In this document: positions 23,192-26,767 of the stretch, piece by piece
How positions within the stretch are numbered: the stretch's first letter is position 1
Layout of the letters: every line of letters starts with the position of its first letter
Source: Actinomycetales bacterium
GTDB lineage: Bacteria > Actinomycetota > Actinomycetes > Actinomycetales > JAHECE01
DNA: 34,025 nt
NCBI GenBank assembly: GCA_029975645.1
Contig: JARKOU010000079.1
Coordinates: forward strand, 1 to 34,025
Reading direction: 5' to 3'
The notes under the pieces: generated by a model
Told to the model about the DNA's origin: nothing
Seen by the model: the letters and a program-made list of their open reading frames with translations, nothing else
Database searches by the model: none
Position numbers and translations under genes: made by a program

Positions 23192-23960
23192 GGGTGTGGT
23201 GCTGCTCCACGGACTCCGGGGGTCGGCAAGCCTGTGGCGCCAGCAGGTGGAATCCCTGCGCACGGCCGGCTACCGCGTCGAGGCGATCGACCTTCCCGGC
23301 CACGGCACCCGGCGGGGTGAGCGCTTCACCCTCGCGGGCGCCGTCGCCCTGCTGGAGTCTGCGTGCGATCGGCTCGCCGAGCTCACCGGAACCGTTCTGG
23401 TGGTGGGGCAGTCCCTGGGCGGGTACGTCGGACTCCACTGGGCGGCGCGCACCCGCGTCCCGCTCGCCGGTGTCCTCGCGGCGGCCTGCAGCACCACTCC
23501 GGTCGGTCCCGCGCTGGGCGGGTATCGGCTCATGGCCGGGGCGGTCGCGCTGCTTCCGGACAAGGGTGCGTGGCTCAACGACCGGATGGCGGCGTTGACG
23601 CTGCCCGAGCAGGGTGCCCGCGACGCCGCCGCGGGCGGATACGCCCTGGACGTCATGCAGGACACGCTGCGTGCGTTGCGGCCCGTTCGGCCGATCGAGG
23701 ACATCCGAGCGCTCGGCGCCGTGCCCGTCTGGATCGTCAACGGTGCGCTCGACCACTTCCGGGCCCAGGAACGCGCCTACCTGAGGGCCGCGCAGAACGG
23801 TCGGCTCGTGGTGGTGCCCCGGGTCAAGCACCTCGTCTCGCTGGAGGCGCCGGTGGCGTTCACGCGCATCGTCTTCGAGATGCTCGACCACGTGGAGGGC
23901 CGTCGGCACCCGCGCCACGTCAGCGGGTCGGCAGGCTCCACGCGCGCACACCGCCGATGA
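23160..23960 (+). CDS. Alpha/beta-hydrolase fold protein
   Basis: A 266-residue protein of the alpha/beta-hydrolase superfamily. Seen with the GTG 23160 start: the oxyanion-hole motif LLHGLRGS (15-22), the nucleophile elbow GQSLGG with Ser85, a candidate acid in NGALDHF and a candidate catalytic His in VKHLVSLEAP. No signal peptide, so it is probably cytosolic. Such proteins act as esterases, lipases or related enzymes; the substrate is unknown. The start is uncertain: GTG 23160 lies inside a tandem repeat, a TTG at 23115 would add 15 residues, and neither has a good ribosome binding site. The 3' end overlaps the convergent ROK gene by 41 nt. Confidence 0.82.
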   Translation: MNRPGGDLNRPGVVLLHGLRGSASLWRQQVESLRTAGYRVEAIDLPGHGTRRGERFTLAGAVALLESACDRLAELTGTVLVVGQSLGGYVGLHWAARTRVPLAGVLAAACSTTPVGPALGGYRLMAGAVALLPDKGAWLNDRMAALTLPEQGARDAAAGGYALDVMQDTLRALRPVRPIEDIRALGAVPVWIVNGALDHFRAQERAYLRAAQNGRLVVVPRVKHLVSLEAPVAFTRIVFEMLDHVEGRRHPRHVSGSAGSTRAHRR

Positions 23961-24681
23961 TGCCCGCGGAGTTCGGCACCACGACGACGTCGTCGCCCAT
24001 CTTCTCCAGGACGGTCGGCACGATGCGCCGGCCGTTCCCGCCACCCACGTAGACGCGGTCCCAGAGCACCACGGGCCGGAGCGCCTCGAGGACGCGGCGG
24101 ACGCGCCGGGACCAGTGGGCGTCGCCGAGCCGGATGCGCTCGTGCTCTCCGATGTACATGTCGTAGGACAGGCCCCACCGCATGGGCGCCTGGGAGAGCT
24201 CGAGGTGGGGAGCGAGCATCCCGCCGTCGTACATGGCGTTCCCGAGGCCCGTGCCCAGGGTGATCACCATCTCCAGGCCGGCGCCGGCGATCACCCCGGC
24301 ACCGTGGACCTCGGCGTCGTTCAGGACGAGCGCGGGGACCCCGAGGGCGTGGGCGACGGCGCCACGCATGTCGAAGCCGGCCCACGCCTCGAGGAGCTCG
24401 GGGACCACGGTGGTCCGGGGTCCGGCGCGGGTCACGTAGTGCGGGGTGGCGACCACGACGCCGTGCCGGATCATGCCGGGCATCCCCACCGTCACGCGGG
24501 CCGCGGGGGGAAGGGAGCGGGCGAGGTCGGCGATCGTGGCGACGAGGCGCTCCGGGGGGAGGGGGTACGGGGTCGGGGTACGCGTCGGGTGGGCGTGCAT
24601 GGTGCCCTGGGCGTCGAGGACCGACGCCTTGATGCCGCCCCCGCCGCAGTCGACGGCGAGTGTCAGGAGGTCCTCGCCCAT
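23920..24681 (-). CDS. ROK family sugar kinase, polyphosphate-glucokinase-like
   Basis: A 253-residue protein of the ROK (ASKHA) superfamily. The phosphate-binding motif LAVDCGGGGIKASVLD (about 8-23), the sugar-site motif VLNDAEVHGAG and the second phosphate motif VITLGTGLG are present; the C-terminal adenosine-side motif is VYVGGGNGR. The ROK zinc motif (CxCGxxGCxE) is absent, and the length and layout resemble PPGK-type glucokinases that use polyphosphate or ATP. Phosphorylation of glucose is therefore likely but the phosphate donor is inferred. ATG 24681 gives MGEDLLTLAVD; the ribosome binding site is weak. Convergent with the hydrolase and divergent from pckG. Confidence 0.8.
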   Translation of the reverse strand: MGEDLLTLAVDCGGGGIKASVLDAQGTMHAHPTRTPTPYPLPPERLVATIADLARSLPPAARVTVGMPGMIRHGVVVATPHYVTRAGPRTTVVPELLEAWAGFDMRGAVAHALGVPALVLNDAEVHGAGVIAGAGLEMVITLGTGLGNAMYDGGMLAPHLELSQAPMRWGLSYDMYIGEHERIRLGDAHWSRRVRRVLEALRPVVLWDRVYVGGGNGRRIVPTVLEKMGDDVVVVPNSAGIIGGVRAWSLPTR

Positions 24682-24895
24682 TCCCCGGACGCTACCCCGC
24701 GCTCCGGGCCGACTATGGACGAACGCCACCTGCGCCGCCGCCAGAGCGGCGCGGGAGGCGTTTGGTCCTACCCGACGGCAGGTGCGGACCATGATGCTAG
24801 GCACACCTCCCGACGGCACCGACGCCGGGATCGCCGCCGCGTGGTGACCTGTACCCCGCGCCGGGTCACCACACGGGGGAAGGACCGAGGAGACC
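24682..24895. other. Divergent intergenic region ROK kinase / pckG
   Basis: This 214-nt gap must hold the promoters of both divergent genes. A weak imperfect inverted repeat flanks a small GC stem at about 24718-24766 (GGAC-AA-CGCC against GGCG-TTTGGTCC). No convincing -35/-10 pair was found. GGGGGAAGGACCGAGGAG before 24896 gives pckG a good ribosome binding site. Confidence 0.45.
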
Positions 24896-26767
24896 ATGAC
24901 CGACATCGACAGAGTCCTCGACGAGGCCGGCCTGCACAACACTCGCGTGCACGACTACGTGCGGTACTGGTTCGACCTCACCGGCGCCGCGCGCATCGAG
25001 GTGGTCAGCGCAGCCGACGACGAGCGCCTCATCGCGGAGTCCCTGGCAGCCGGGGAGATCGTGCCGGCGGGCGACGGCCTGTACTACTCGCGCTCGTACT
25101 ACAAGGACACCGCGCGCTCGGAAGAGCGCACCGTGGTGGCCACGAGCAACCCTGCCGACAAGGGCGTCTACAACAACTGGCGGCCCGCCGCGGAGATGAA
25201 GTCCCTGCAGGAAGAGCGCATGCGCGGGGCGTCGACCGGCAAGACGATGTATGTGATCCCGTACCTCATGGCTCCTCCCGGGTCCCCGCTCGAGGACTAC
25301 GCGGGAGGTGTCGAGCTCACCGACAACCGCACCGTGGTGCTCCACATGATCCGCATGGCCCGGGTGGGCCCGCAGTTCATCGACAACCTCACGCACCCGG
25401 ACCGCTTCGTGCGGGCGGTACACGTGACCGGGGACCTCGAGAACCTCGGCCAGGGCACGCCCGAGGACCAGCGGTACTTCGTCACCGTCGCCGACGAGCG
25501 TCTGATCCTCCACTACGGCTCGTCCTACGGAGGCAACGCCCTGCTCGGGAAGATCGCCCACGGCCTCCGGCAGGCCTGCTACGACGGCTGGGCGTCCGGT
25601 CAGTTCCTGTCGGAGCAGTTCATGCTCATCGGGATCCGGGACAAGGTGACGGGCCGCAAGTACCACGTCTGCGGCGGGTTCCCGAGCGCCTCGGGCAAGA
25701 CCAACCTGGCGATGATGCTCGCGCCGGACGCCCTGGGCGACCGGTACTACGTCGAGTTCTTCGGCGACGACATCGCGTGGATCTGGGTGAACCCCGAGGA
25801 CGGCCGCGTCTACGCGATGAACCCCGAGAACGGGGTGTTCGGCGTGGCCAAGGACACGAACGAGGTGTCGAACCCGACGGCGCTCGCCGCCATCGCGCCC
25901 GGGACCAAGACGTTGTTCACCAACGTCGCGTACAACGAGGCCACCCAGGAGGTCTGGTGGGAGGGGCGCACGCCCGACTACCCGGAGGACGTCACCGGCT
26001 GGCGCGACTGGAAGGGCAACCTCATCTCGGAACGGCCGATCGAGCACCAGCGGTCCGCTCTGGCCGGCGACACCTGGGCCCACCCGAACAGCCGCTTCAC
26101 CACGGCGATCGACAACGTGCCGAACGCCTCGCCCGACTTCCACGACCCCCGCGGGGTGCCGATCGACGCGATCATCTTCGGCGGCCGGTGCCGGGACCGA
26201 GAGCCGCTCATCCGGGCCATCACGGACCTGGCCGAGGGCGTGTACGACGGTCTCACCCTGGGCGCCGAGGCGACGTTCGCCGCGGAGGGCAAGGAGGGCC
26301 AGCTGCGCTACGACCCGATGTCCATGCGGCCCTTCATGGCCTACAGCGAGGGTGCCTATGCCGCCCACTGGCTGAGCATCCTCGGGGCAGCGCGGGAGCT
26401 CCCGATCTTCGCCCACGTCAACTGGTTCCAGCGGTGCCCCGACGGCCGGTACATCTGGCCGGGCTACCGGGAGAACCTCCGTCCGCTCCTGTGGCTGCTC
26501 GACCTCAAGGAGGGCCGGGTGAGCGGCCGCTCGACGCCGGTCGGGATCGTGCCGGCGCCCGGGGAGCTCATCCTCGAGGGCCTCGACCTGCCCGCCGGTG
26601 ACCTCGAGTCGCTGCTCGCGATCGACGTCGACCGGTGGCGCCGTGAGATGCAGATGCGCGAGGAGCACCTCGCCCAGTTCCACGGGCTCCCCGAGGAGAT
26701 CTGGGTGGCGCACCGGCGCGTGACCGGTGCCCTCGACGCCCAGACGCCGGTGCCCGCCGGCGCGTAA
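24896..26767 (+). CDS. pckG: Phosphoenolpyruvate carboxykinase, divergent GTP type
   Basis: A 623-residue member of the GTP-PEPCK family (oxaloacetate + GTP to PEP + CO2 + GDP), the gluconeogenic entry step. The fold is covered end to end: TARSEERT (72-79, the substrate-binding Arg region), NNWRPAAEM, GKTMYVIPYLM, SYGGNALLGK (210-219), P-loop FPSASGKTN (262-270), GDDIAW (290-295), NPENGVFGVA, and the guanine-site region NWFQRCPDGRYIWPGYREN. Compared from memory with canonical enzymes, the P-loop FPSACGKTN has Ser266 for Cys, the second Lys of GKK is Ile220, and the His of AEHML is Gln241; the last two positions bind Mn2+ in classical GTP-PEPCK. The GGR motif is kept (GGRCRDREPL). Activity is thus probable but not certain. 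A strong GGAG precedes the ATG. Confidence 0.85.
   Translation: MTDIDRVLDEAGLHNTRVHDYVRYWFDLTGAARIEVVSAADDERLIAESLAAGEIVPAGDGLYYSRSYYKDTARSEERTVVATSNPADKGVYNNWRPAAEMKSLQEERMRGASTGKTMYVIPYLMAPPGSPLEDYAGGVELTDNRTVVLHMIRMARVGPQFIDNLTHPDRFVRAVHVTGDLENLGQGTPEDQRYFVTVADERLILHYGSSYGGNALLGKIAHGLRQACYDGWASGQFLSEQFMLIGIRDKVTGRKYHVCGGFPSASGKTNLAMMLAPDALGDRYYVEFFGDDIAWIWVNPEDGRVYAMNPENGVFGVAKDTNEVSNPTALAAIAPGTKTLFTNVAYNEATQEVWWEGRTPDYPEDVTGWRDWKGNLISERPIEHQRSALAGDTWAHPNSRFTTAIDNVPNASPDFHDPRGVPIDAIIFGGRCRDREPLIRAITDLAEGVYDGLTLGAEATFAAEGKEGQLRYDPMSMRPFMAYSEGAYAAHWLSILGAARELPIFAHVNWFQRCPDGRYIWPGYRENLRPLLWLLDLKEGRVSGRSTPVGIVPAPGELILEGLDLPAGDLESLLAIDVDRWRREMQMREEHLAQFHGLPEEIWVAHRRVTGALDAQTPVPAGA

Follow-up and report, generated by a model that had tools for sequence, protein, structure and literature searches.

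A conserved actinobacterial branch of GTP-type phosphoenolpyruvate carboxykinase with replaced metal-1 ligands

Described PEPCKs and the window gene

The M1 Mn2+ site, built from Lys, His, and Asp, is common to GTP- and ATP-type phosphoenolpyruvate carboxykinases (PEPCKs) and is central to their published mechanisms; in the rat enzyme, its ligands are Lys244, His264, and Asp311. A 1995 paper reportedly described a GDP-coupled PEPCK in Actinomyces naeslundii. Metal site 1 of GTP-PEPCK has been described as Lys, His, and Asp (PMC4370629), and in a survey from 2007, Aeropyrum pernix alone had no second Lys in the PCK-specific motif, for which the authors suggested that a metal site had been lost (PMC2684135). 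The P-loop is known to vary at its hyper-reactive Cys, which is naturally Ser in the GTP-PCKs of Thermoplasma acidophilum and T. volcanium (SASGKTN; PMC2684135). In M. tuberculosis Pck, the corresponding Cys273 is reported to be non-essential (PMC5279734), and the C273S protein, an engineered single change with the metal-1 site intact, is folded and was crystallized (5i67).

The window, by which we mean the whole stretch of 34,025 nucleotides that was analyzed, carries an intact open reading frame at 24896-26767 (+) with an ATG start, a stop at its end, zero internal stops, and a product of 623 aa. A ribosome-binding site, GAGGAG, was read from the sequence 5' of the ATG (24887..24892, +). The product matched two Pfam families (PF17297 and PF00821), PEPCK_N at 188 bits and PEPCK_GTP at 387 bits, along almost the whole of each profile, and scored 602 bits against the NCBIfam equivalog NF003253, PEP carboxykinase (GTP), for which the cut-off is 504. 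The curated cut-offs for GTP-dependent PEPCK were thus exceeded full-length by a protein of ordinary GTP-PEPCK length, and only GTP-type families were matched, with no match to the ATP-dependent PEPCK profile PF01293. By sequence, the nearest solved relatives were M. tuberculosis Pck chains. An AlphaFold2 model had a mean pLDDT of 90.9, with local dips to 66 around residues 211-220 and to 61 around residues 261-270, and its best solved fold matches were the M. tuberculosis and Polaromonas GTP-PEPCKs (TM 0.84-0.91). The gene therefore encodes an IQS-type PEPCK, where IQS is our label for the clade with Ile, Gln, and Ser at positions 220, 241, and 266. The two-domain fold is common to this clade and canonical GTP-PEPCK (EC 4.1.1.32; M. 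tuberculosis Pck, 4wou and 4r43; rat cytosolic enzyme, 2qew; Polaromonas enzyme, 9e32).

Altered and retained residues

In the alignment, Ile220 (25553..25555, +) takes the place of the second Lys of GKK, Gln241 (25616..25618, +) that of the His of AEHM, and Ser266 that of the P-loop Cys in FPSASGKTN (25679..25705, +), where Lys268 and Thr269 are kept and the SxxGKT motif is intact. The one metal-1 ligand left is Asp292, within the invariant Asp291-Asp292 pair that also forms the kinase-2 motif (25766..25771, +). The sequence-only reading had called these three changes and the retention of the Asp of GDD, and all of these calls were correct. An alignment run to look for Lys and His at the metal site did not place them there, and a shifted register that hides them was ruled out, since YGGNALLGK aligns as one block without a gap and Glu240, beside Gln241, is invariant. 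Because the Asp alone is retained from the M1 ligands, we describe the protein as a variant rather than as a plain member of GTP-PEPCK.

Across a family alignment of 154 members, 88 sequences had Ile/Gln/Ser with the Asp, 65 had Lys/His/Cys with the Asp, and 1 (L061, at a locus of genome G314) had Lys/His/Ser with the Asp. Ile220, Gln241, and Ser266 were each found in 88/88 clade sequences, whereas Lys and His were kept in 66/66 sequences elsewhere, so that loss of the 2 metal ligands was always joint, confined to the IQS clade, and found in 0/66 canonical or distant homologues. Synonymous codon variation was present at all 3 sites within the clade. L061 is an otherwise canonical PEPCK that keeps Lys and His, which indicates that Ser can replace the Cys without any accompanying change at the metal site; because the Thermoplasma enzymes also have Ser, the P-loop Cys is not strictly family-defining. 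The P-loop Ser pointed out from the sequence alone is thus real, but it is less remarkable than it had seemed. Thermoplasma GTP-PCKs differ from IQS in that both PCK-motif Lys are kept (SKK; PMC2684135). The A. pernix PCK likewise lacks the second Lys of the motif (LKM); unlike IQS, it is ATP-PEPCK-like in sequence and a single species, and its His was not commented on (PMC2684135).

About 40 further positions are diagnostic of the clade, including His206, Ser210, Ala221, Phe242, Phe288, and Asp320. Three His residues (206, 222, and 507) are clade-invariant and missing from canonical enzymes; His206 (25511..25513, +) stands where canonical enzymes have Ser and His222 (25559..25561, +) where they have Tyr or Phe, each in 84/84 clade sequences versus 0/61. 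These His, together with the retention of all other catalytic residues, would suit a Mn2+-dependent GTP-PEPCK of the ordinary kind, its Mn2+ held by Gln241, Asp292, and one of the clade His in a slightly altered shell and its metal preference unchanged. We regard this as rather unlikely, given that the clade His sit off the ligand positions and that metal binding is impossible for Ile220.

Retention was extensive beyond metal site 1, as IQS and canonical GTP-PEPCK have in common the P-loop Lys and Thr, the kinase-2 Asp-Asp, the Arg, Asn, and Tyr that bind oxaloacetate or PEP, and the guanine pocket. In a 67-sequence alignment, Arg74, Tyr211-Gly-Gly-Asn214, Pro263-Ser264, Gly267-Lys268-Thr269, Gly290-Asp-Asp-Ile293, Asn398, Arg400, Arg431, and Phe511 were invariant. 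The oxaloacetate/PEP-binding set (Arg74, Tyr211, Asn398, and Arg400) is therefore present, with Arg74 (25115..25117, +) corresponding to the R-loop Arg87 of the rat enzyme and Arg400, in Asn398-Ser399-Arg400 (26087..26095, +), to rat Arg405, both of which have a described role in binding oxaloacetate and PEP (PMC5279734). Lys219, the first Lys of GKK (25550..25552, +), was kept in 84/84 clade and 61/61 other sequences, and Tyr524 and Asn527 were likewise invariant among the 84.

Extent, phylogeny, and genomic setting of the IQS clade

A phylum-wide search returned 2 further proteins at 70-72% identity, after which the next match dropped to 45%. Scanning GTDB genomes with the peptides MSMRPFM and FAHVNWF gave 344 confirmed matches; residues were read in the best 80 of these, which had 72-78% identity in the best segment and came from Aeromicrobium, Nocardioides, Blastococcus, Modestobacter, Mumia, Phycicoccus, Trueperella, Schaalia, Arcanobacterium, Varibaculum, and other genera. 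Mean pairwise identity within the clade was approximately 74%, versus at most 45% to ordinary actinobacterial PEPCK. Close clade pairs had dN of approximately 0.02-0.03 versus dS of 0.12-0.19, and dN this far below dS indicates functional constraint (purifying selection) on the IQS genes. More distant proteins from other lineages of the phylum (L145-L148; approximately 28% identity to the window protein) are without the WPG guanine motif and keep Lys, His, and Cys; they resemble the archaeal/Giardia-type motif of PMC2684135. Lys, His, and Cys were also all kept in 5 proteobacterial PEPCKs borne on plasmids or megaplasmids. One canonical GTP-PEPCK gene, on the conjugative plasmid p3 of Sphingobium sp. 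CAP-1 (L160), adjoins a gene whose annotation reads alkylphosphonate utilization protein.

We built an IQ-TREE C20 tree with the 3 diagnostic columns removed. A branch supported at 100/99 separated all IQS sequences from every sampled canonical GTP-PEPCK, and proteobacterial and actinobacterial enzymes were intermixed on the canonical side. Nesting inside canonical actinobacterial PEPCK, the placement that would have spoken against a separate subfamily, is ruled out by this branch. The IQS stem measures 2.86 changes per column, and because it is so long the exact position of the root is uncertain, although the clade itself is not. The proposal that this is a separate subfamily whose metal geometry differs is thus well supported at the level of sequence, with one deep clade and a joint loss of Lys and His seen nowhere else among the 154 sequences. 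We found no description of this branch in the open-access literature and, to our reading of it, the branch is undescribed so far.

In a class sample of 396 genomes, in which IQS and other GTP-PEPCK genes were counted by hand, IQS was identified in 43 genomes, as the sole GTP-PEPCK in 25 and with another GTP-PEPCK copy in 18. ATP-PEPCK was identified in 0/25 of the IQS-only genomes. Within one genus (code g41), 12 near-complete genomes had IQS as their sole GTP-PEPCK and no PPDK_N protein (PPDK/PEP-synthase); GlpX FBPase was present in these 12 genomes, and full-length isocitrate lyase in 2. Similarly, IQS was the sole GTP-PEPCK, and no PPDK_N was found, in Aeromicrobium phragmitis, A. camelliae, A. 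massiliense, and Aeromicrobium sp. Root495, whereas A. endophyticum and A. stalagmiti had IQS plus a canonical PEPCK, and a canonical PEPCK stood beside IQS in 6/6 named Actinomycetaceae genomes tested. One genome (G388) had 2 IQS-type copies, on C26 and C107, and a third PEPCK match. The suggestion to look for a second, canonical pckG in the genome of the window was followed up, and neither a second PEPCK nor a PF01293 match was found in this 88.7% complete assembly, which carries PPDK-like and PEP carboxylase genes.

Where IQS is the only PEPCK and PPDK/PEP-synthase was not found, it is the sole PEP-forming candidate found, if sugars are made there from C4 acids, which argues that the enzyme is able to run at least towards PEP. 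These genomes bear on the alternative that PEPCK activity has been lost and that another reaction is carried out on the same substrates, such as the decarboxylation of oxaloacetate or the use of GTP to phosphorylate some other enolizable acid. Loss of 2 of the 3 M1 ligands, co-occurrence with canonical PEPCK in 18/43 IQS genomes, and a lack of any conserved operon partner linking IQS to gluconeogenesis would all agree with such a change. However, the 25 genomes with no other PEPCK, among them the 12 with FBPase and without PPDK/PEP synthase, and the intact PEP/oxaloacetate residues make it improbable.

No conserved operon was identified for the IQS genes, and about half of their immediate neighbors were singletons. 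A canonical gene lay within a few kb of IQS in some Nocardioidaceae and Phycicoccus loci, which was not general; the 2 genes were adjacent and divergent in Phycicoccus elongatus (L135:5633-9839) and adjacent in tandem in a Nocardioidaceae MAG (L139:2624-8316). Such side-by-side genes may be under shared or opposed regulation. An ArsR-like regulator was divergent from and directly upstream of the IQS gene in 5 loci (L119:7557-7916, L110, L122, L134, and L144), again not generally; ArsR-family proteins are often metal sensors. In the window, the divergent neighbor of the PEPCK gene is a ROK-family sugar-kinase-like gene (PF00480) at 23920-24942 (-), inside the rpoA-rplQ/truA-rplM-rpsI ribosomal region. 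A perfect 9-bp inverted repeat, GTGGTGACC-N14-GGTCACCAC, occupies 24841-24872, 23 bases before the PEPCK gene begins, and was not shared by relatives.

Nucleotide use, possible mechanism, and significance

The guanine pocket of the window protein, with 3 aromatics and an Asn (Phe511, Tyr519, Tyr524, and Asn527; 26426..26476, +), is equivalent to Phe502, Phe510, Phe515, and Asn518 of M. tuberculosis Pck, for which the roles of the nucleotide phosphate residues have also been described (PMC4370629). Phe511, Tyr524, and Asn527 were found in 84/84 clade sequences, and position 519 was always aromatic (Phe in 80 and Tyr in 4). A shift of the guanine-site aromatics from Phe to Tyr had been proposed from the sequence; this holds for Tyr519 and Tyr524 but not for Phe511, and Tyr at the position equivalent to 524 is common among ordinary GTP-PEPCKs (PMC2684135, Table 2), adding a hydrogen bond to the ribose in the Polaromonas enzyme (PMC12529880). 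The one point in favor of the accompanying idea of another phosphate donor, ATP or pyrophosphate in place of GTP, is how far IQS lies from canonical enzymes (at most 45% identity). With the guanine pocket and phosphate residues kept, the P-loop Lys and Thr invariant, Tyr524 ordinary, and zero ATP- or PPi-type features in a protein of ordinary length and profile score, a switch of donor is unlikely, to the point that we give it very little weight. PPi-dependent PEPCK has been described as lacking the catalytic domains of GTP- and ATP-PEPCK (PMC10441589). A sequencing or assembly error, or a decaying gene in a contaminated draft genome, might be suspected from the 6.5% contamination and incomplete state of the assembly, but this is practically ruled out by Ile/Gln/Ser in 88/88 sequences, finished genomes included, and by dN well below dS.

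The window protein belongs, as its residues and phylogeny show, to a distinct and conserved actinobacterial branch of GTP-PEPCK, which probably performs the PEPCK reaction with GTP on a rebuilt M1 site. Since its other catalytic residues are intact and the clade supplies the sole PEPCK of genomes in which PPDK/PEP-synthase was not found, a working GTP-PEPCK is very probable. We infer PEPCK activity, GTP use, and metal preference along the following lines. The reaction would be oxaloacetate + GTP <-> PEP + GDP + CO2. At M1, the nitrogen ligands Lys and His, which favor Mn2+, have given way to Ile and the oxygen donor Gln, with Asp292 and the M2 site (nucleotide-metal, Mg-GTP) kept. Most likely, M1 would then either bind Mg2+, a harder ion, by way of Asp292, Gln241, and water, so that the enzyme runs with Mg2+ alone and is perhaps Mg2+-selective, or be empty, leaving one metal fewer. 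The enolate would be stabilized by Lys219, Arg74, and perhaps a clade-specific His, and the P-loop, its oxidizable thiol replaced by Ser, would be insensitive to oxidation.

Against this explanation, mutation of the corresponding Lys and His of the yeast enzyme reportedly reduces its activity strongly, and many genomes have IQS alongside canonical PEPCK; in genomes with 2 PEPCKs, IQS could have another job. Tentatively, the lineage may have gone further and left the M1 Mn2+ site unused, relying on nucleotide-bound Mg2+ and Lys, Arg, and His alone, and so providing a Mn-independent and oxidation-resistant enzyme that replaces or complements canonical PEPCK.

A conserved and abundant branch is thus without 2 of the 3 M1 ligands and, in 1 genus or more, supplies the only PEPCK of most genomes sampled, so that a natural enzyme makes the role of the M1 metal testable. 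Automatic annotation at the equivalog level masks this metal-site change. Metal-limited or oxidizing conditions might explain the retention of 2 PEPCKs by many actinobacteria. A Mn-independent IQS enzyme would come as a strong surprise to PEPCK enzymologists; if Mn2+ is held by other residues, the surprise would be moderate.
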